Source: Streptomyces sp. NRRL F-5630
GTDB taxonomy: Bacteria; Actinomycetota; Actinomycetes; Streptomycetales; Streptomycetaceae
Assembly (NCBI RefSeq): GCF_000719475.1
Contig: NZ_JOGO01000025.1
Location: forward strand, 1-64,000
DNA: 64,000 nt
Reading direction: 5' to 3'
A model generated the notes under the pieces. It saw nothing but the letters and a program-made list of their open reading frames with translations, had not been told where the DNA came from and did no database searches. Of this stretch, positions 26,378 through 39,720 are shown piece by piece. Numbering within the stretch: position 1 is the first letter of the stretch; every line of letters starts with the position of its first letter. The position numbers and the translations under genes were made by a program.

Positions 26378-27391
26378 TCAGGCGTCCCGCGGGCCCCGGA
26401 GTTGGTCCGCCCCGCTCAGCCGGGGTGCCACCAGGAGGTGGGGTGCCGGTGTGACGCGGGGGAGGGACGTGGCGTCGGCGGCGAGATGGGTGACCTCGGT
26501 GGCCAGGGTGTGGACCGGGAGGTCGACGCGGGGGAGGCGGCGGGCGGTGGGGTCGTCGGGGAGGGAGCCGAGGACGAGGACGGTGAGGTCCTCGGGGGTG
26601 CGCAGGCCGAGAGCCGTGAGGGCGCTCAGGGCGTGGTCGGCGGAGGGGTGCTGGACGATGAGGGCGGTGGCGCGGCCGGGGCCCGTGCCGATGGTCTCGC
26701 GCAGCCGGTGGGCCAGACGCGGGGCGTCGTCCGGTGTCTCCAGGACCCGTACCGGCAGCCCCGTCTCCTTCGCCGCCGCCCGGCCGCCCGCCCGCCCGCG
26801 CAGGGCGTAGCTGCGGCGCGCGGCGTACTCGTGTCGCGTGGGGCCGAGGTAGACGAGGGCGCGGTGTCCCGCGGCGGCGAGGGAGCGGACCGCGAGGGCG
26901 GCGGCGGCCTCCCAGTCCAGATCTGTCCACGGCAGCGCGGTCTCGTCGGCGGGGCGGCCGATGAGCGCGGCGGGGAAGCCGAGTTCGCGGACGACGTCGA
27001 TGCGGCTGTCCTCCATGTCGACCGCCATGAGCACGGCCGCGTCCGCGAGCCCGCTGAGCGCGACGCGGCGCACGCCCTCCGCCTTGTCCTGCGAGGTGCT
27101 CAGGAGCAGGTCGTAGCCGAGCATGTTGGCCGCGTCGCTCACGTCGATCGCGAAGCGGCCGTCCACCGAGCGCTGGAGCCCCGCCGCGCGCGGCACGGCG
27201 AGCGCGATGACCCGTGTCCGCCCGGCACGCAGCGTTCGCGCCGAGGCGCGCGGGTGGTAGCCGAGCACGTCGATCGCCTCGCGCACGCGGGTCCTGGTCT
27301 CCTCGGAGATGGAGCGCGAGCCGCTCAGGACGTACGAGACGGTGCTCGGTGCCACCCCGGCGTACTGGGCCACATCCCTGATCGTTGCCAC
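26378..27391 (-). CDS. LacI-family transcriptional regulator
   Basis: A 337-residue LacI/GalR repressor. The DNA-binding head ATIRDVAQYAGVAPSTVSYV (residues 2-21) is textbook, followed by the hinge helix GYHPRASARTLR and a periplasmic-binding-like core. The GTG at 27391 is chosen because VATIRDVA is the family start. It lies upstream of and parallel to the sugar operon, and the twin palindromes sit between. It most likely represses binding protein, permeases, GH1 and GH31 until an oligosaccharide inducer appears. Confidence 0.9.
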   Translation of the reverse strand: MATIRDVAQYAGVAPSTVSYVLSGSRSISEETRTRVREAIDVLGYHPRASARTLRAGRTRVIALAVPRAAGLQRSVDGRFAIDVSDAANMLGYDLLLSTSQDKAEGVRRVALSGLADAAVLMAVDMEDSRIDVVRELGFPAALIGRPADETALPWTDLDWEAAAALAVRSLAAAGHRALVYLGPTRHEYAARRSYALRGRAGGRAAAKETGLPVRVLETPDDAPRLAHRLRETIGTGPGRATALIVQHPSADHALSALTALGLRTPEDLTVLVLGSLPDDPTARRLPRVDLPVHTLATEVTHLAADATSLPRVTPAPHLLVAPRLSGADQLRGPRDA

Positions 27392-27577
27392 CGTCGAACC
27401 TCCCCGCCACCTGCGCGAACGGCGCGAGTCATGGTAACCGCCGCGACGGAGCGCGATCAGTCCGCGCGGCCCCCCGCCCCCGCGCGCCCCTCGCCCCGGC
27501 CTCGTTTGCCTCCCCGGGCCCCGGGTACTCGCGCCGAACCCCGGCAACCGATCCATACGATCCATACAGGAGAATTC

Positions 27578-28885
27578 ATGAGCGAAACAGTAGAAACCCC
27601 TGCGAAGAAGCGACTCGACGTCTTCGTCGTCGGGCTCGACGACGACAACCTCGAAACACTCCGTGAGGTCCCCGGCGCCGACGGGCTGGCCTTCCATCCC
27701 CTCCTCTCGGTGGCCGAACTCCAGGAGGGCGAGATCGATTTCGACGGGCTGCTCGCCAAGGCGCGGGCCACGCTCGACGCGTTCGACGGGAGCGTGGACG
27801 CGGTCGTGGGGTACTGGGACTTCCCGGTGAGCGCGCTCGTGCCGCTGCTGTGCGCCGAGCGCGGCCTGCGGGCGACGAGTGTCGAGTCGATCGTGCGCTG
27901 CGAGCACAAGTACTGGAGCCGGCTCATCCAGCGCGAGGCCGCGCCGGAGGCCGTGCCCGGCTTCGGGCTCGTGGATCTCGACGAGACGGAGCCGCGCCCG
28001 CCCGAGGGCGTGTCCTTCCCGATGTGGCTCAAGCCCGTGAAGTCGTACTCGTCGGAACTGGCCTTCGGGGTCAAGGACGAGGCGGAGTTCCGCAAGGCCG
28101 TGGACGAGATACGGGCCGGGATCGGGCGCGTGGGAGGGCCGTTCACGCGGCTCATGGAGGGCATCGACCTGCCGCCGGAGATCGCCGAGGCGGGCGGAGC
28201 CGCGTGCCTCGCCGAGGAGACGCTGACCGGCGTGCAGTTCGCGGTCGAGGGCTACGTGCACGACGGCGAGGTCGTCGTCTACGGGGTGCTCGACTCGCAC
28301 ACGTACCCCAACAGCGCCTGCTTCCTGCGCCACCAGTACCCGGCGGACCTGCCCGAGGAGACGACGCGGCGCGTCGTGGACATCTCGCGGCGCGTCATGG
28401 AGCGGACCGGGCTCGACGCGGCGACGTTCAGCATCGAGTTCTTCTACGACCCCGAGACCGGCGACGTGAAGATCCTGGAGATCAACCCGCGCCACTCGCA
28501 GTCGCACGCCGAGATGTTCGCGCACGTCGACGGCGTCCCCAACCACCACCGGATGCTGAGTCTCGCGCTCGGCCGCGACCCGCGCGTGCGGCAGGGGCAC
28601 GGGCGGTACGAATACGGCGCGAAGTGGTACTACCGCCGGTTCCGCGACGGCGTCGTGCACCGCGTGCCGACCGCCGAGGAGATCGCGGAGATCGAGCGCG
28701 AGGTGCCGGGCGTCAAGGTGGTGATCGTTCCCGAGGAGGGCGTACGGCTCTCCGAGATGCCGGGCCAGGACAGCTACTCGGCCGAGCTCGCGCACCTGTA
28801 CGTCGGGGCCGACAGCGACAAGGAGCTGGAGGCCAAGTACGACCGCGCGGTGCGGGGGCTGCGCTTCGAGATCGAGGACGTCTGA
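27578..28885 (+). CDS. ATP-grasp domain protein (carboxylate-amine ligase-like)
   Basis: A 435-residue ATP-grasp enzyme, which forms a bond between a carboxylate and a nucleophile through an acyl-phosphate. Visible parts are an N-terminal pre-ATP-grasp domain with a WDFPVS strand, the nucleotide-binding Lys152 and Lys155 in WLKPVKSYSS, a long beta-hairpin, and the metal-binding EINPRHSQSH at 301-310. AGGAGA lies 7 bases before ATG 27578, just after a 9-bp tandem repeat (GATCCATAC twice). It is followed by a CocE-type hydrolase gene. The substrate (amino acid ligation, for instance) is not known. Confidence 0.82.
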   Translation: MSETVETPAKKRLDVFVVGLDDDNLETLREVPGADGLAFHPLLSVAELQEGEIDFDGLLAKARATLDAFDGSVDAVVGYWDFPVSALVPLLCAERGLRATSVESIVRCEHKYWSRLIQREAAPEAVPGFGLVDLDETEPRPPEGVSFPMWLKPVKSYSSELAFGVKDEAEFRKAVDEIRAGIGRVGGPFTRLMEGIDLPPEIAEAGGAACLAEETLTGVQFAVEGYVHDGEVVVYGVLDSHTYPNSACFLRHQYPADLPEETTRRVVDISRRVMERTGLDAATFSIEFFYDPETGDVKILEINPRHSQSHAEMFAHVDGVPNHHRMLSLALGRDPRVRQGHGRYEYGAKWYYRRFRDGVVHRVPTAEEIAEIEREVPGVKVVIVPEEGVRLSEMPGQDSYSAELAHLYVGADSDKELEAKYDRAVRGLRFEIEDV

Positions 28886-28886
28886 G

Positions 28887-28950
28887 GCGGCCCCGCCCCC
28901 GCGAGGAGACCGAAGAGGCGGTCCCGCCCCGCGAAGAGACCGAAGAGATC
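28887..28950 (+). repeat. Short imperfect direct repeat between the ligase and hydrolase genes
   Basis: The unit CCCGCGAGGAGACCGAAGAG recurs as CCCGCGAAGAGACCGAAGAG, followed by a partial GATCGAAGAGG. All lie between the ATP-grasp stop and the hydrolase start. The purine-rich units may act as extra ribosome-loading sites; that is speculation. Confidence 0.55.
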
Positions 28951-28976
28951 GAAGAGGCCCGTACCGGAAAGGACTT

Positions 28977-30998
28977 ATGCGTTACGTCAGCCAACTCCCG
29001 CACCCCGTGAAGGAAGAGGAGCACGTCCTCATCCCGATGCCGGACGGCGTCCGGCTCTCGGCGCACGTCTGGCGGCCCGTCTCGTCCGACACGGAGCCCG
29101 TGCCCGCCGTCCTGGAGGCGATCCCGTACCGCAAGAGGGACTTGAGCTCCGTACGCGACTCGATGCACCACCCCTACCTCGCCGGGCACGGCTACGCCTG
29201 CGTGCGGCTCGACCTGCGCGGTACGGGGGATTCGGAGGGCGTGCTCCTCGACGAGTACCTGGAGCAGGAGCAGCGCGACGCCGAGGAGGTGCTCGCCTGG
29301 CTCGCCGAGCAGCCGTGGTGCGACGGCGCGACGGGCATGATGGGCATCTCCTGGGGCGCCTTCGCCGCGCTCCAGACCGCCGCGCGCCGCCCGCCGAGCC
29401 TGCGGGCCGTCGTCCTCGCCTCCTTCACCGACGACCGCTACGACGACGACATGCACTACATGGGCGGCGCGATGCTCTCGGACAACCTCGCCGAGGCGGG
29501 CACGATGTTCGCCTACGCGACGTGCCCGCCCGACCCGGCGGTCGTGGGGGAGCGGTGGCGCGACATGTGGCACGAGCGCCTCGCGGCGAGCGGCCCGTGG
29601 GTCGTCGAGTGGCTGCGCCACCAGCGCCGCGACGCCTACTGGCGGCACGCCTCGGTGTGCGAGGACTACGGCGCCGTGCAGGTGCCCGTGCTCGCGTCGA
29701 GCGGCTGGGCCGACGGCTACTCGAACGCCGTCACCAGGCTCCTCGAAAACCTCGACGTGCCCCGCAAGGGCCTCATCGGGCCGTGGTCGCACAAGTTCCC
29801 GCACCTCGGCGAGCCGGGCCCGGCGATCGGCTACCTCCAGGAGGTGGTGCGCTGGTGGGACCACTGGCTCAAGGGCGAGGAGAACGGCGTCATGGACGGG
29901 CCGATGCTGAAGTCCTGGATGCAGGAGAGCGTCCCGCCGTCGACGGCGTACGAGCAGCGTCCGGGCCGCTGGGTCGGCGAGCCGAGCCTGCCGTCACCCC
30001 GGGTGGAACCGCGCACGCACCCGCTGACGGCGCACCGCATCGAGGAGCCGGGCGCTCCCGACGGGGCTCCCGGCGAGTGGCTCACCGTGTCCTCGCCGCT
30101 CTCGGTCGGCCAGTACGCGGGCAAATGGGCCTCGTACAACGCCCCGCCCGACCTCCCCTACGACCAGCGCGAGGAGGACGGCGGTTCGCTCGTCTTCGAC
30201 AGCGGCGTCCTCGCCGAGCGCCTGGAGATCCTGGGCGCGCCGACCGTCGAGCTGGAGTTCACCGTGGACCGGCCCGTCGCGCAGGTGGCGGCGCGGCTCT
30301 CGGACGTGGCCCCGGGCGGCGCGTCGACGCGGGTCTCGTACGGCGTCCTCAACCTCACTCACCGCGGGGGCGGCGATCCCGAGCCGCTGGAGCCCGGGCG
30401 CACCTACCGTGCCACGGTCCGGCTCAACGGCATCGCCCAGGCGTTCCCGGCGGGCCACCGCCTGCGCCTGTCCCTCTCCACCTCCTACTGGCCCCTCGCC
30501 TGGCCGCCGCCCGAGCCCGTCATGCTCGCGGTGAAGGCGCGCGCGAGCACCCTCACCCTCCCGGTGCGCCCGGTCCCGTCCCAGGACGAGGGCATCGCCT
30601 TCGGCGAGCCGGAGGCGGCACCGCCCCTCGCGACGGAACAGCGCGTCCCGCCCGAGCAGTCCTGGCGCGTCTCGCGCGACCTCGTCGACTACCACGCGAC
30701 GCTCGACATCGTGAAGGACAGCGGTACGACGCACTACACGGACATCGACCTCGACGTCGGGCGCCGGGCCGTCGAGCGCTACGACTGGACCGCCGACGAC
30801 TTCACCTCGCCGCGCGGCCACTCCGCCTGGACGATGAGCTTCTCGCGCGGCGACTGGGACACCCGCACCGAGACCACCACCACCCTCACGTGCGACGCGG
30901 AAAACTTCCACGTCCACGCGACGCTCGACGCCTACGAGGGCGGGGAGCGGGTGTTCTCGCGGAACTGGAAGGAGACGGTGCGGCGGGACCTGGTGTGA
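28977..30998 (+). CDS. CocE/NonD-family hydrolase (X-Pro dipeptidyl-peptidase-like)
   Basis: A 673-residue alpha/beta-hydrolase of the S15/CocE group. The nucleophile Ser125 is in GISWGA, the acid is Asp in SSGWADGYS, and the His is in GPWSHKF. A cap follows, then a C-terminal jelly-roll domain (VELEFTVDRPVAQVAARLSDVAPGG) typical of X-Pro dipeptidyl peptidases and cocaine esterase. It has no signal peptide. It follows the ATP-grasp gene by 91 bases with the same orientation, so they may make and trim, or make and release, the same amide or peptide. Confidence 0.85.
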   Translation: MRYVSQLPHPVKEEEHVLIPMPDGVRLSAHVWRPVSSDTEPVPAVLEAIPYRKRDLSSVRDSMHHPYLAGHGYACVRLDLRGTGDSEGVLLDEYLEQEQRDAEEVLAWLAEQPWCDGATGMMGISWGAFAALQTAARRPPSLRAVVLASFTDDRYDDDMHYMGGAMLSDNLAEAGTMFAYATCPPDPAVVGERWRDMWHERLAASGPWVVEWLRHQRRDAYWRHASVCEDYGAVQVPVLASSGWADGYSNAVTRLLENLDVPRKGLIGPWSHKFPHLGEPGPAIGYLQEVVRWWDHWLKGEENGVMDGPMLKSWMQESVPPSTAYEQRPGRWVGEPSLPSPRVEPRTHPLTAHRIEEPGAPDGAPGEWLTVSSPLSVGQYAGKWASYNAPPDLPYDQREEDGGSLVFDSGVLAERLEILGAPTVELEFTVDRPVAQVAARLSDVAPGGASTRVSYGVLNLTHRGGGDPEPLEPGRTYRATVRLNGIAQAFPAGHRLRLSLSTSYWPLAWPPPEPVMLAVKARASTLTLPVRPVPSQDEGIAFGEPEAAPPLATEQRVPPEQSWRVSRDLVDYHATLDIVKDSGTTHYTDIDLDVGRRAVERYDWTADDFTSPRGHSAWTMSFSRGDWDTRTETTTTLTCDAENFHVHATLDAYEGGERVFSRNWKETVRRDLV

Positions 30999-31128: not shown

Positions 31129-31275
31129 CGTGCGGCGCGGCTCGTCGTCGGGACGAGCGGAAGCGAGCGGGGAGAGGTGCGCCACCTCTCCCCGGTATCT
31201 CCGCCGCGCGACTTCCGAGTGTTCTTCCTGCGAGGGGGTACCCACGGGCCCACCGCACACGAGGAGGAGACGCAG

Positions 31276-32433
31276 GTGGGACCGAGGGAAACGGGGCGCT
31301 GGGCCCGCGAGGAGACGGCGGCGGTCGTCGCGACCGTACGGACCGTGTTCCGGCAGCCGGGCCCGGAGCGTGACTCCGTCGTGCAGTCGCTCAAGGCGGC
31401 GGGCGCCGCGATCGCCGCCTGGGCGCTCGCCGGCTGGTGGCTGCAGGCCCCGATGGCGCTGCTCGCCCCCTGGACGGCGCTCGCGCTCGTCGACGTGACC
31501 GTCTACCGCTCGCTGCGCGCCGGACTCCAGCAACTCGCCGTCATCTTCATCGGCACCCTGACCGCTACCGCCGCGCTCGGTCTCACGGGCGACGACACGC
31601 TCGGCGCCATGGCACTCGCGCTGCCGCCCCTCCTCCTCATCGGCACCTACCGCCGCTTCGGAACGCAGGGGATCTACGGGGCGACGACCGCGCTCTTCGT
31701 CATCACCGCGACCACGGCGAGCGCAGGCGAGATCGGCCACCGCCTCCTGGAGACCGTCATCGGCGCCGTCATCGGCATCACCGTCAACGCCTTCGTGCTG
31801 CCGCCCGTGCACCTGCGCAACGCGGGCGACCAGCTCCTGCGGCTGCCCCGGGACACCGGACGACTCCTGCGCGACCTCGCGCAGGGCGTGGGGGGCGAGT
31901 GGGAGGCGGAGCAGGCACTGGCCTGGCACGACGCGTCGCGCCGCCTTGAGGAGACCCTGCGGTACGTGCGGGAGGCCAGGCGGAGCGGCGAGGAGAGCTC
32001 CCGGCTCAACCCGGGCCTGCGGCTGCGCCGCGCCCCGTCCGCCCAGCCGCCGGCCGCGCTCGACGCCCGCTGGGCCACCGTCATCGACCACCTGCGCGCG
32101 ATCACCCGCACCCTCGCGACCCTCGCCCAGGGCGACAACCCGCTGCGCTCCCCCGGCAACGACTTCTTCGCCGACTGGGCCCGCCTCGCCGAGACGCTCG
32201 CGGTGCTGTGCGAGCGGGAGTACGAGGCACTCGCGCGCCGGGAGCCGAGCGCGCCCTACCGCCTGGAGCAACGGGCGGTCCCGGAGGACGTCCGCGAGGC
32301 GTACGAGGCGCTGGACGCCTCCTTCCACGCGCTCTCGGGCACGGGGGCCGTCCCGGCCGGTGAACTGCTCGCCGAGACGTGGCAGGTGCTGCGGGCCCTG
32401 GTGAGCGACATGCCGCGGGAGGTCGGGAGGTGA
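31276..32433 (+). CDS. FUSC-family aromatic acid exporter-like membrane protein
   Basis: A 385-residue protein with four to six closely packed hydrophobic segments in residues 40-175 followed by a long charged helical C-terminal half. This is the FUSC/ArAE arrangement. The GTG at 31276 follows GAGGAGGAGA. The related AaeB-type exporters extrude aromatic carboxylates; half-length actinobacterial members are of unknown substrate. It lies 207 bases upstream of the acyl-CoA-dehydrogenase-like operon on the same strand and could export its product, which is inference. Confidence 0.75.
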   Translation: MGPRETGRWAREETAAVVATVRTVFRQPGPERDSVVQSLKAAGAAIAAWALAGWWLQAPMALLAPWTALALVDVTVYRSLRAGLQQLAVIFIGTLTATAALGLTGDDTLGAMALALPPLLLIGTYRRFGTQGIYGATTALFVITATTASAGEIGHRLLETVIGAVIGITVNAFVLPPVHLRNAGDQLLRLPRDTGRLLRDLAQGVGGEWEAEQALAWHDASRRLEETLRYVREARRSGEESSRLNPGLRLRRAPSAQPPAALDARWATVIDHLRAITRTLATLAQGDNPLRSPGNDFFADWARLAETLAVLCEREYEALARREPSAPYRLEQRAVPEDVREAYEALDASFHALSGTGAVPAGELLAETWQVLRALVSDMPREVGR

Positions 32434-32640: not shown

Positions 32641-33843
32641 ATGACCCACCGTCCCCCGTCCGCTTTCGAGCCCCAGGAAGGCGATGGTGTCCTTCCGCCG
32701 GGTGACGCGGGCGCCCCCCAGCCGGGCGATTTCGGCGCCGCCTCCGCCCGCGCCGCGACCGCCGCCCGCTTCGCCGTCGCCGCGCGGCAGATCGAGGAGG
32801 GCAAGCTCCGCTTCCCGCTGCCCGGCAGCTGGGCGACCGGTCTGCGCTTCGCCGCGCTGCGCGGCGTCGCCGAGGAGGACCTCGCCGTGGCCCGCCTCGT
32901 CGAGGGCCACACCGACGCCCTCGCGATCCTCGCCGAGCTGGGCGGTCCCCCGCCCGCGCCCGGCCAGCGCTGGGGGGTGTGGGCGGCGGAACCGCCCGGC
33001 GAGGGAGTGCGGGCCCACCACGACGCGAGGGCGGACACCTGGACGCTCAGCGGCCTCAAGCAGTACGCCTCCGGGGCGCACTCGTGCACCCACGCCCTCG
33101 TCACCGCCCGCACCGAGGACGGGCCACGGCTTTTCGCGGTCCGCCTCGACCGCGGCACCACGCCCGAGGAGAGCGGCACGCCGGAGAAGCCCGGCACGTT
33201 CGACGAGCCGGGCACGCCCGGGGAGCCCGGCACTTTCGAGGAGAGCGGCGCGCGGTCGGACCTCCGCCCGGACACCGGCCCCGGCACGTACGAGCCCGTC
33301 CCCGGCACCTGGCCCGCGCTCGGCATGGCGGGCTCCGACACGCCCGACGTGCGCTTCGACGGCGCGCCCGCGCTCCCCGTCGGCGGGGTGGACGCCTATG
33401 TGCGCAGGCCCGGCTTCGCCCACGGCGGGGTCGGAGTGGCCGCGTGCTGGCTCGGCGGCGCCCACGCGGTGACGGGCGCGCTGCGCCGTGCCGCCGCGCG
33501 CCGGGGGAGCCCCTTCACCGACGCCCATCTCGGCGCGGTGGACGTCGAGTTGTACGCGGCCGGGCTCGTCCTGGAGCGCGCTGCCGCCGAGATCGACGCC
33601 GACCCGGAGGACGCGGCGGGCGGCGCCGAGCAGCGCGCCCTGCGCGTCCGCGCGCTCGTCGCCGCCTGCTGCGAACGCGTCCTCACCCACGTGGGCCGCG
33701 CGACCGGCGCGGGACCCCTGTGCCACGACGCCCGGCACGCCCGCGCCGTCGCCGACCTCACCGTCTACGTGCGCCAGCACCACGCCGAACGCGACCTCGC
33801 CGTCCTCGGCGCGCACGTCGCGGGCCGGGCGGAGGAAGCATGA
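32641..33843 (+). CDS. Acyl-CoA dehydrogenase-like flavoprotein with low-complexity insert
   Basis: A 400-residue protein resembling acyl-CoA dehydrogenases: an N-terminal helical region, a FAD/substrate beta-domain (VWAAEPP...WTLSGLKQYASGAHSCTHALVTAR) and a C-terminal four-helix region. It differs by a Pro/Gly/Thr/Glu-rich insert at about residues 176-222 with repeats such as GTPEKPGTFDEPGTPGEPG. I cannot identify the catalytic Glu base. It is the first of four overlapping genes (ATGA with the PIG-L gene). It probably oxidises an acyl or amine group in a glycoconjugate rather than acting in beta-oxidation. Confidence 0.72.
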   Translation: MTHRPPSAFEPQEGDGVLPPGDAGAPQPGDFGAASARAATAARFAVAARQIEEGKLRFPLPGSWATGLRFAALRGVAEEDLAVARLVEGHTDALAILAELGGPPPAPGQRWGVWAAEPPGEGVRAHHDARADTWTLSGLKQYASGAHSCTHALVTARTEDGPRLFAVRLDRGTTPEESGTPEKPGTFDEPGTPGEPGTFEESGARSDLRPDTGPGTYEPVPGTWPALGMAGSDTPDVRFDGAPALPVGGVDAYVRRPGFAHGGVGVAACWLGGAHAVTGALRRAAARRGSPFTDAHLGAVDVELYAAGLVLERAAAEIDADPEDAAGGAEQRALRVRALVAACCERVLTHVGRATGAGPLCHDARHARAVADLTVYVRQHHAERDLAVLGAHVAGRAEEA

Positions 33844-34583
33844 GCAGACCCGACCCCATCCAGGCTCCGGGCACCGACGAGGCACTGTGGCGGGCCTGGG
33901 AGGGGTGGGCGGAACTGCCGCAGGCCGTGCTGCCGCAAGGGCCCGTCGTGGTGGTCGCCGCGCACCCCGACGACGAGGTGCTCGGCGCGGGCGGCGCGCT
34001 CGCGATGCTCGCCGCCGCCGGGCGGCCGCTCACCGTCGTCACCGTCACCGACGGGGAGGGCTCGCACCCGCGCACCCGCGTGCTGCGGCCACCGGCCCTC
34101 GCCGCCCGCCGCGCGGGGGAACTGCGCGCGGCGCTCGCCCGGCTCGGCGCCTCGTCGGCCCGCACCGTCCGCCTGCGGGTGCCCGACACGGCCGTCGCCG
34201 CGCACGAGGAGGAGGTGCGCCGGGCGCTCGTCCCGCTCACGGAGGGCGCCGCGCTCGTCCTCGCGCCGTGGACCGGCGACGTCCACGCCGACCACGAGGC
34301 GACCGGCCGCGCCGCGCGCGCCGCCGCGCGCGAGACGGGCGCCCCCTCCGCCGCCTACCCGGTCTGGATGTGGCACTGGGCCCGCCCCGGCGATCCCCGC
34401 GTGCCCTGGCACCGCGCCAGGCGCCTGGACCTGCCCGCCGACGTCCGCGCGCGCAAGCGCGAGGCCGTGGCCTGCTTCCGGAGCCAGATCGCCCCGCTCG
34501 GCCCGGCCCCCGAGGACGCCGCGATCCTGCCGCCGGAGGAACTCGCCCATCACGTACGCGACTTCGAAGTGTGGTTCGCATGA
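33840..34583 (+). CDS. PIG-L family deacetylase
   Basis: A 247-residue zinc-dependent deacetylase of the PIG-L/MshB family. The metal motif AHPDDE is at residues 41-46, a second ligand region is DVHADHEATG, and a C-terminal RKREAVACFRSQI helix follows. The family removes acetyl from GlcNAc-containing compounds (mycothiol, GPI, bacillithiol precursors). It overlaps both neighbours by four bases. In this operon it likely unmasks an amine for the methyltransferase encoded next. Confidence 0.87.
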   Translation: MSRPDPIQAPGTDEALWRAWEGWAELPQAVLPQGPVVVVAAHPDDEVLGAGGALAMLAAAGRPLTVVTVTDGEGSHPRTRVLRPPALAARRAGELRAALARLGASSARTVRLRVPDTAVAAHEEEVRRALVPLTEGAALVLAPWTGDVHADHEATGRAARAAARETGAPSAAYPVWMWHWARPGDPRVPWHRARRLDLPADVRARKREAVACFRSQIAPLGPAPEDAAILPPEELAHHVRDFEVWFA

Positions 34584-35197
34584 GCACTCCCGCCGGTTAC
34601 TTCACCGCCATGTACGACGGCGCCGAGGACCCCTGGGGCCTGCGCAGCCGCTGGTACGAGGAGCGCAAGTACGCCCTCACGCTCGCGGCCCTGCCCCGGC
34701 CCCGTTTCCGCCGGGCCTTCGAACCGGGCTGCTCGGTGGGCGAGCTGACCCGGCGGCTCGCGGGCCGCTGCGAGCGGCTGCTCGCCACCGACCGCGTCCC
34801 GGAGGCCGTCGAGCGGGCCCGCGAGGCCACGCGAGGGCTCGACCACGTCGAGGTCGCCCGGCTCACCGTGCCCGAGGAGTGGCCGGAGGGCGCGTTCGAC
34901 CTCGTCGTCCTCTCCGAACTCCTCTACTACTTCGACGCCCCGGCCCTCGACCTCCTCCTGAGCCGCACGGTGGACTCCCTCACCCCCGGTGGCACCCTCG
35001 TCACCGTCCACTGGGACCACCCCGTGCCGGAACACCGCCTGACCGGGACGGAACTGACCGACCGCCTCGCCCGCGAGGAGGGGCTCGCCCTCCGGCTCGA
35101 CCACCGCGAGGAGGACTTCGTGCTCCAGACCTTCACCCGCCGGGTCCCGGGCGAGCCGCTGCCGCCGTCCCCCGCCGCGTACGAAGGACTCGTGTGA
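34580..35197 (+). CDS. NodS-like SAM-dependent methyltransferase
   Basis: A 205-residue class I methyltransferase. The SAM-binding motif I is FEPGCSVGELTRRLA, motif II is LLATDRVPEAVERARE, and motif IV is FDLVVLSELLYYF. The opening YFTAMYDGAEDPWGLRSRWYEERKYALTLAAL is the pattern of the NodS group, whose rhizobial member N-methylates the deacetylated glucosamine end of lipochitooligosaccharides. It starts at ATG 34580 in ATGA overlap with the deacetylase, a pairing that mirrors the deacetylate-then-methylate chemistry. Confidence 0.83.
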   Translation: MSTPAGYFTAMYDGAEDPWGLRSRWYEERKYALTLAALPRPRFRRAFEPGCSVGELTRRLAGRCERLLATDRVPEAVERAREATRGLDHVEVARLTVPEEWPEGAFDLVVLSELLYYFDAPALDLLLSRTVDSLTPGGTLVTVHWDHPVPEHRLTGTELTDRLAREEGLALRLDHREEDFVLQTFTRRVPGEPLPPSPAAYEGLV

Positions 35198-36111
35198 GCG
35201 TCCGGCCGCCGGAGGGCGGGCCGCCGGTGACCCCCGGGCGGTACGGGCCGCACGAAGCCCCCACCTCGCACGGCACCCCCGCGCCGCACGGAGCCCCCGT
35301 ACCGTACGGAACCCCCGCGCCGTGCCGAGGTGCCTCCCCGTACGCCCCCCGTGCCGCGCGCGACCTCGCGGCCCTCGCCGTCGTCGTCCCCGCCCACGAC
35401 GAGGAGGCGCTGCTCCCGCACGCCCTCGCCGCCCTGCGCCGCGCCGCCCGGCACCCGGCCCTGCCCGTCCGGGCGCGGGTGCGGGTCGTGGTCGTCGCCG
35501 ACGCCTGCGCCGACGCGACGGCGGAACTCGCCCACGCGGCCGGCGCCCATGTCGTCCGGATCGACGCCCGCAACCCGGGGCGGGCACGCGCCGCCGGGGC
35601 CGCCGCCGCGCTCGGCCTGTTCGGCGAGTCCCCGGCACGCGTGTGGCTCTCCTCGACCGACGCCGACAGCCGCGTCCCCGCGGACTGGCTCGCCAGGCAA
35701 TGGCGTTGGGGAGCGCGCGGCTGGGAGGCCGTCGTCGGCACCGTCCAGCCGCTGGGCGGTGATCCCGCCCTCGCCGGGCTGCTCCACCGCGAGGCGGTCC
35801 GGTACCGCGAGGCGGGAGGCGCGCGGCACCCGCACGTCCACGGCGCCAACCTCGGGGTACGCGCCGACGCCTACCTCGGCGTCGGCGGCTTCCCGCCGCT
35901 CGCGACGGGCGAGGACCACGCCCTCGTCCGCGCCCTGGAGGCGGGCGGCCACCGCGTCCTGCGCACCCGGCGCTCCCCCGTGGCCACCTCGGCCCGCCTG
36001 CGTCCGCGCGCGAGCGGCGGTTACGGCGCACGGCTGGCCCGGCTCGCCGCAGTGGAGGGCGCGAAGCCGCCGCGGGGAGCGGCGCCCGTACCGGGGGCGG
36101 AGCCCGCGTAG
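35194..36111 (+). CDS. Family 2 glycosyltransferase
   Basis: A 305-residue GT2 enzyme. The nucleotide-binding start is LAALAVVVPAHDEEALLPHAL, the DxD-type motif is SSTDADSRVP, and an acceptor-side HGANLGVRADAYLGVGGFPPL...GEDHAL block follows. The first 50 residues are a Pro/His/Gly-rich stretch with repeats (HGTPAPHGAPVPYGTPAP). GTG 35194 overlaps the methyltransferase stop (GTGA). No membrane segments are seen, so it is probably cytosolic. It ends 18 bases from the convergent decarboxylase gene. Confidence 0.83.
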   Translation: MSVRPPEGGPPVTPGRYGPHEAPTSHGTPAPHGAPVPYGTPAPCRGASPYAPRAARDLAALAVVVPAHDEEALLPHALAALRRAARHPALPVRARVRVVVVADACADATAELAHAAGAHVVRIDARNPGRARAAGAAAALGLFGESPARVWLSSTDADSRVPADWLARQWRWGARGWEAVVGTVQPLGGDPALAGLLHREAVRYREAGGARHPHVHGANLGVRADAYLGVGGFPPLATGEDHALVRALEAGGHRVLRTRRSPVATSARLRPRASGGYGARLARLAAVEGAKPPRGAAPVPGAEPA

Positions 36112-39045: not shown

Positions 39046-39720
39046 GTGAACACGCCCGCCGCAGTCTTCGACGTGGACGGCACCCTCGTCGACACCAACC
39101 ACCTCCACGCCGTCTGCTGGTGGGAGGCGCTGCGCCAGGCCGGGCACCGGGTGCCGTTCACCGCGATCCTCAGGGCGATCGGGCTCGGCTCGGCCGACCT
39201 CCTCACGCACGTGCTCGGCGAGGACCACGACCGGGACGGCGACGCGGACATCAGCGCCGGGCACAAGGCGCTCTACGGCACGTACTACGACCGTCTCGCG
39301 CCCTTCGACCGCGCCGCCGACCTCCTGCGTCAACTCCACGTCGAAGGCTGGCCGGTCGTCCTCGCGACCTCGGCGGGCGGCCCCGAACTCGCCGCCCTGC
39401 GCGCCGCGATCGACGCGGACGACGCGATCGACGCGACCTCGAGCGCCGACGACGTGGCGGCGGGCAAACCGGCCCCCGACCCCGTGCTCCACGCCCTCGA
39501 ACAGGTCGACGCGGACCCGGCGGGTTCCGTCTTCGTCGGCGACTCGGTGTGGGACATGCGCGCGGCGGCGTCCGCGGGGCTTCACCCCATCGGGGTCCTC
39601 AGCGGCGGGGTGCCCCGCGCGGACCTCGTCGCGGCGGGCGCGCGCGAGGTGTACGAGGACGTCGCCGAGCTCTTCGCGAAGCTCGGCGACAGCGCGTTCG
39701 GGCGGCGCGCGGCGGCCTGA
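39046..39720 (+). CDS. HAD-superfamily phosphatase
   Basis: A 224-residue HAD hydrolase. Motif I is FDVDGTLVDTN (nucleophile near residue 9), motif II is LATSAGG, motif III Lys is in GKPAPDPV, and motif IV is FVGDSVWDM. The cap helices after motif I are those of beta-phosphoglucomutase/phosphoglycolate-phosphatase-like enzymes. It starts with GTG 39046 and ends at a strong bidirectional hairpin. The substrate is unknown. Confidence 0.85.
   Translation: MNTPAAVFDVDGTLVDTNHLHAVCWWEALRQAGHRVPFTAILRAIGLGSADLLTHVLGEDHDRDGDADISAGHKALYGTYYDRLAPFDRAADLLRQLHVEGWPVVLATSAGGPELAALRAAIDADDAIDATSSADDVAAGKPAPDPVLHALEQVDADPAGSVFVGDSVWDMRAAASAGLHPIGVLSGGVPRADLVAAGAREVYEDVAELFAKLGDSAFGRRAAA

Follow-up and report, generated by a model that had tools for sequence, protein, structure and literature searches.

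A cassette of four overlapping genes, here called A, P, M and G, occupies positions 32641-36111 of a 64,000-nt stretch of Streptomyces sp. NRRL F-5630 DNA (hereafter the window); it is a real, widespread and biosynthetic unit that works like the core steps of the Nod pathway but fails the tests of membership in that pathway. All four genes lie on the forward strand. A (32641..33843) encodes a flavoprotein of the acyl-CoA dehydrogenase (ACAD) fold, judged from sequence profiles and a structural model to be probably a flavin monooxygenase and possibly an N-oxygenase; P (33840..34583) a PIG-L (CE14-type) de-N-acetylase with an intact HPDDE motif; M (34580..35197) a NodS-like S-adenosylmethionine-dependent methyltransferase; and G (35194..36111) a GT2 glycosyltransferase with a TDAD (DxD-type) motif. 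The original prediction had described Nod-like chemistry in an overlapping four-gene operon, and its frames and coordinates have been confirmed, as have the junctions, which read ATGA (A-P), ATGA (P-M) and GTGA (M-G) directly from the frames. With confidence about evenly balanced, we regard the cassette as an accessory, self-contained and often plasmid-borne unit for the production of a small glycoconjugate that carries a modified amino sugar. In the proposed pathway, G would attach an N-acetylated amino sugar to an acceptor, and the acetyl group would be removed by P or, in Rubrobacter-type genomes, by a CE4 enzyme of the NodB fold; M would methylate the freed amine, as NodS does; and A, acting as a flavin-dependent oxygenase rather than a dehydrogenase, would oxidise the product, possibly at nitrogen. 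The compound would be part of a stress or desiccation programme together with catalase and trehalose, and not a symbiotic signal. What is observed is the conservation, gene order and overlaps of the cassette, a CE4 enzyme in the place of PIG-L, a gene fusion and the family relationships of the proteins; the substrates, step order, N-oxidation and physiological role are what we infer.

Conservation of the cassette was assessed at the best 80 of at least 573 confirmed relatives of M, a sample that leans to close kin, using profiles for the four genes. All four genes occur together at 71 of these loci, in the order A-P-M-G at 65, G-A-P-M at five (in Rhodococcus and Gordonia) and A-M-P-G at one, where the genes are the same and the order is suspect since some frames were badly placed. 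Four loci are cut by contig ends, two of them retaining A-P-M and two P-M-G (L063, L075, L065, L091). The gene set, whose restriction to the window would have spoken against the pathway as originally predicted, is thus conserved elsewhere, both at these loci and on plasmids. The 4-nt overlaps are retained at 59 of 72 A-P, 71 of 74 P-M and 63 of 67 M-G junctions. Given six PIG-L matches in the 7.06-Mb genome of the window, a PIG-L gene would be expected within approximately 1 kb of the methyltransferase with a chance of about 0.2%, and a P gene is present at 75 of the 80 loci (directly before M in 74), so the grouping cannot be attributed to chance. M also occurs alone, with no A, P or G in the approximately 16.6 kb fetched, at five of the 80 loci, all in Streptomyces (L098, L106, L111, L112 and L119). 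No wider shared neighborhood around the cassette was found in Streptomyces, where calling of open reading frames is noisy in high-GC DNA.

With A as the bait, a search of 296 Actinomycetota genomes gave 30 top loci of 168-428 bits, followed, among the matches listed, by two genes matched piecewise (G234 and G048) and then by scores of 96.4 bits at most. Within the genus of the window, A is present in 25 of 199 genomes at E <= 1e-40, which identifies the cassette as accessory. Its spread beyond Actinomycetota, known from plasmid records, includes Pseudomonadota, Deinococcota and Cyanobacteriota, and among the hosts are Acinetobacter, Pandoraea, Comamonas, Roseomonas, Sphingobium, Novosphingobium, Sphingomonas, Bradyrhizobium, Limimaricola, Sulfitobacter, Deinococcus, Kitasatospora and Nostoc. 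Among 19 plasmid loci, six have A-P-M-G, seven A-P-M, one M-G and two M only; D. radiodurans keeps M apart from A-P, and Cupriavidus and Rubrobacter have A and M with no adjacent P. In Deinococcus and Nostoc, G is encoded on the opposite strand.

The most informative variation concerns the deacetylase. P belongs to the PIG-L family (PF02585, 92.5 bits against a cut-off of 28.2), with HPDDE kept in the window protein and in all 98 relatives, and a strict second motif in 74 of the 98. The annotation of Rubrobacter indicoceani shows no PIG-L within 8 kb of the cassette, and a polysaccharide deacetylase of the NodB fold (CE4; PF01522, 92 bits) is encoded immediately before A. Across the 1.5-kb flanks of the 30 A-bait loci, a CE4 gene stands beside A at 17 of the 18 loci without P (the exception being L158) and at none of the 12 with P; TFDDG and HxxxH are found in all 17 CE4 proteins and RPP in 14. 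The occurrence of two unrelated deacetylase folds in one slot suggests that removal of an N-acetyl group is the step common to both forms of the cassette. Sixteen of the 17 CE4 loci belong to a single family (f21, assigned to Rubrobacteraceae since the R. indicoceani gene is in L130) and the other to f12, which implies few independent exchanges. At 16 of the 17, M adjoins a gene related to that of the Rubrobacter Pyr_redox_2 flavoprotein, a possible electron donor (L140 ends too early to tell). Furthermore, in Sulfitobacter indolifex a single 1026-residue protein (L046:4369-7449) combines GT2 (131.9 bits), NodS (84.6 bits) and CE4 (108.7 bits) domains, which suggests that a glycosyltransferase, a methyltransferase and a deacetylase can serve one product. 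The fusion gene lies near sulfotransferase and polysaccharide-biosynthesis-type genes.

M matches the NodS family of Pfam (PF05401, 51.6 bits against a cut-off of 24) and stays under the cut-off of the NodS equivalog NF041650 (68.5 against 300). In a search of solved structures, the profile of the cassette M proteins (METHYLTRANSFERASE) matched an unnamed methyltransferase (4isc, 212 bits) and NodS (3ofj, 114 bits), after which phosphoethanolamine N-methyltransferases ranked at 72 bits or less. In the phylogenetic tree, a branch with support of 93/80, just under the starred level, sets NodS and the cassette-type M proteins apart from 24 other methyltransferases of the order; three of the 35 rows counted as cassette in this tree (L038, L039 and L098) come from incomplete cassettes. 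The NodS side also holds the Sulfitobacter fusion domain, and NodS itself forms a long, separate branch. Our best guess from these sequence relationships is that M methylates an amine.

G matches Glycos_transf_2 of Pfam (38.7 bits against a cut-off of 23.3), and the TDAD motif is invariant in 40 aligned rows. Its score against TIGR04283, an arsenosugar/mftF-like glycosyltransferase model, lies far under the cut-off (41.1 against 182), and no relative was found when the single window sequence was searched against solved structures. A NodC-like assignment of G was considered and is not supported, as hydropathy analysis predicts no membrane span and the best structural matches are generic GT-A enzymes. 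The N-terminal extension of G (window 35194-35345) is of low complexity and modeled with low confidence. In Sphingobium (L047:3114-9400) and Novosphingobium (L159:3057-9412), a catalase gene upstream of the cassette is followed by three further glycosyltransferase genes that run in the direction of the cassette.

The assignment of A required comparison of two enzyme groups that share a fold. For the window protein, the Pfam match is limited to Acyl-CoA_dh_M (21.5 bits, under the cut-off of 33.3), and a single-sequence search of solved structures found no relative. With a profile of 51 A sequences, the first nine matches are flavin monooxygenases (DszC, 5gj7/5z8t, MsuC, KijD3 and TdsC) and the first ACAD is the 10th; 5gj7 and 5z8t, almost identical chains whose titles read putative ACAD and flavin-containing monooxygenase, were counted by the 5z8t title. 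The structural model of A (mean predicted local distance difference test score 86.9) has the ACAD fold, and its Foldseek ranks 1-15 are monooxygenases, including KijD3 at 4 and 10 and DnmZ at 13 and 14, with the first ACAD at 16. The Foldseek E-values differ little between monooxygenases and ACADs, which are tied in VIA-align. A thus appears to resemble flavin monooxygenases slightly more than ACADs in sequence and modeled structure, although its identity to the monooxygenases in the Foldseek rows is 13-20%. According to the accessible parts of the background literature, KijD3 is an amino-sugar N-oxygenase and DszC a flavin monooxygenase (PMC11134501, PMC11177257).

Active-site comparison points in the same direction. 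The Glu of the EGT/EGS segment is the catalytic base of acyl-CoA dehydrogenases. In two alignments, the position of this Glu in six ordinary actinobacterial ACADs (six of seven fetched; L174 gave no alignable frame) is occupied by Gln in every one of 51 cassette A proteins, and the column next to this Gln also lacks Glu. An invariant His90, initially a candidate monooxygenase hallmark, was dropped, as ordinary ACADs share it. The original prediction had an ACAD-like protein standing in for the Nod acyltransferase; this role is not supported, given the monooxygenase-first ranks and the replacement of Glu by Gln, and A is probably an ACAD-fold flavin monooxygenase. N-oxygenation by A would fit a pathway in which an amine has just been released. 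The alternative that A is a genuine acyl-CoA or acyl-ACP dehydrogenase, so that the product would be a glycolipid or an acylated glycoside with a desaturated acyl chain, agrees with the fold, with the Pfam ACAD domains of the D. radiodurans member and with the acyl-CoA dehydrogenase label that A bears in the annotated plasmid records examined; however, the same Gln and the same ranks count against it, no acyl-CoA ligase or acyltransferase is encoded by the four genes, and we consider it unlikely. The window protein also contains an insert of approximately 43 residues (window 33160-33288), low-complexity with repeated GTxxExxGTP-type units and modeled with low confidence, which is missing from the eight other A proteins of one alignment. 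Two Deinococcus A proteins (L040:1193-3532 and L163:4899-7247) are longer, approximately 780 residues, of which about 400 form an additional N-terminal region; in L040 this region has no Pfam match at 1e-3 and by eye is TIM-barrel glycosidase-like.

A link to catalase and trehalose, which the original prediction had not foreseen, emerged from the plasmid loci. The annotated loci were hand-picked from lists of 162 and 30 records and are not a random sample; 18 were left after removal of L046 (the fusion protein, not a cassette) and of L162 (Nostoc) and L176, which carry no annotation. At L038 and L039, M has neither A nor P close by. A catalase gene is found in the fetched stretch at seven of the 18 loci (L038, L041, L042, L047, L159, L161 and L177; L038 was counted for a 'catalase family protein'), and no catalase or trehalose gene was found in five 50-kb control stretches (250 kb) from five of the same plasmids. 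No catalase- or trehalose-type neighbors stood out at the Streptomyces loci. Genes for ferritin-like proteins, Dps, Ku, LigD, Hsp20, PRC-barrel and CsbD proteins also occur near plasmid cassettes, without a control count; one control stretch has a PRC-barrel gene. Expression data are consistent with the link: as far as the accessible part of the study reports, A. baumannii ACICU_02432-02435, which encode a glycosyltransferase, a methyltransferase, LmbE and an ACAD-related protein in one operon, are down 31- to 62-fold in two colistin-dependent mutants and belong, with otsA, otsB, a ferredoxin and catalase, to the 33 genes down more than tenfold (PMC5660220). The orthology of these four genes to the cassette was deduced from their annotation and order and from A and M matches in other A. 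baumannii records, rather than from their own sequences. Taken with the cassette neighbors, these published expression data make a stress metabolite likelier than a signal.

Trehalose itself could be the substrate, in which case the cassette would modify it, for instance to amino- or N-methylamino-trehalose, as a compatible solute. In Comamonas the cassette lies between the trehalose genes (otsA-A-P-M-G-otsB, where all junctions overlap but that of A and P, which are 2 nt apart), the otsA and otsB genes of Acinetobacter are one gene away on the opposite strand, and the reported co-expression with otsAB (PMC5660220) would also agree. However, these two are the only trehalose loci among the 18, and a shared stress regulon explains the co-regulation equally well; this substrate is improbable in our estimation.

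MshA/MshB and BshA/BshB are pairs of a glycosyltransferase and a PIG-L enzyme, and the cassette shares with them glycosyl transfer followed by PIG-L deacetylation. A thiol-cofactor-like pathway of the mycothiol or bacillithiol type, with N-acetylglucosamine transfer and then deacetylation, would explain why P matches the BshB1, BshB2 and MshB models; however, the scores fall far under all three equivalog cut-offs (47.7/182.5, 40/195.25 and 29.1/224.35, respectively). In addition, G is a GT2 enzyme, the cassette has a methyltransferase and a flavoprotein in the place of a cysteine ligase, and a methylated amine presumably could not couple to cysteine, so we give this pathway very little weight.

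The Nod parallel drawn originally holds in part. As in the nodB-nodC-nodS genes of Rhizobium phaseoli (L166) and Sinorhizobium americanum (L168), deacetylation, GT2-type synthesis and NodS-family methylation stand side by side, and the CE4 exchange (bringing a Nod-type enzyme into Rubrobacter-type cassettes), the fusion protein and the M tree support treating these three activities as one pathway. Membership in the Nod system does not hold: the window operon, like most loci examined, has PIG-L and no CE4 (NodB-type) deacetylase, which is limited to the Rubrobacter-type relatives; flavoprotein A is added; G is soluble by hydropathy; and no NodA-type acyltransferase was assigned by Pfam or NCBIfam to any of the four genes or two neighbors, to which the search was confined. 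A true Nod-factor-like lipochitooligosaccharide signal is the least credible product, the NodS kinship of M and the CE4 enzymes being outweighed by the missed NodS equivalog cut-off, the generic GT-A matches of G, the absence of a NodA-type gene from the operon, the stress-gene neighbors and the many hosts that are not known to be symbionts.

Around the cassette, a FUSC/ArAE-type membrane protein gene (31177..32433, forward strand, start uncertain) lies 207 nt upstream of A and outside the conserved core; its product matches ArAE_1 (28.5 bits, cut-off 22), with FUSC_2 (22.2) under the Pfam cut-off of 25.6-25.8. FUSC genes recur as a minority neighbor, near 11 of the 80 loci against 1.2 expected from seven matches in the window genome, a comparison from which shared ancestry was not removed. 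Their varying positions and strands make the suggested role as the exporter of the product a weak proposal. Downstream of the cassette, an Orn/Lys/Arg decarboxylase gene lies on the opposite strand, and relatives of a HAD-family hydrolase (window 39046-39720) are present at six of the 80 loci. A small cluster of its own may be present at 26378-30998, where an ATP-grasp protein gene precedes one for an S15/PepX-type hydrolase and a LacI-type regulator is encoded upstream on the opposite strand. A scan for sigma-70-like promoters and intrinsic terminator patterns found none, a weak test at 73.5% GC.

The literature search, which covered subscription journals little, returned no published name or account of the pathway; the accessible parts of two papers list the same four annotated families, in the same order, as neighbors of Acinetobacter photoreceptor (BLUF) genes and do not discuss their function (PMC9020721, PMC6240043). 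As a tentative and rather doubtful extension, the product could be an undescribed stress metabolite widespread in bacteria: a glycoside in which a glucosamine-type nitrogen is freed of its acetyl group, N-methylated and then N-oxygenated by a KijD3-like flavoenzyme to give a hydroxylamine, nitrone or N-oxide. Such a compound might protect by trapping radicals, and the cassette would be a mobile one with interchangeable PIG-L and NodB-fold deacetylases. The interchange of the two deacetylase folds makes de-N-acetylation the likely shared step, so that the substrate can be tested in vitro. The pathway, for which no name was found, was seen in four phyla and is carried by 25 of 199 genomes from the genus, suggesting a metabolite for which nobody may yet have looked, and the link with catalase and trehalose suggests where to look for it: in stationary phase, under oxidative stress and on drying.

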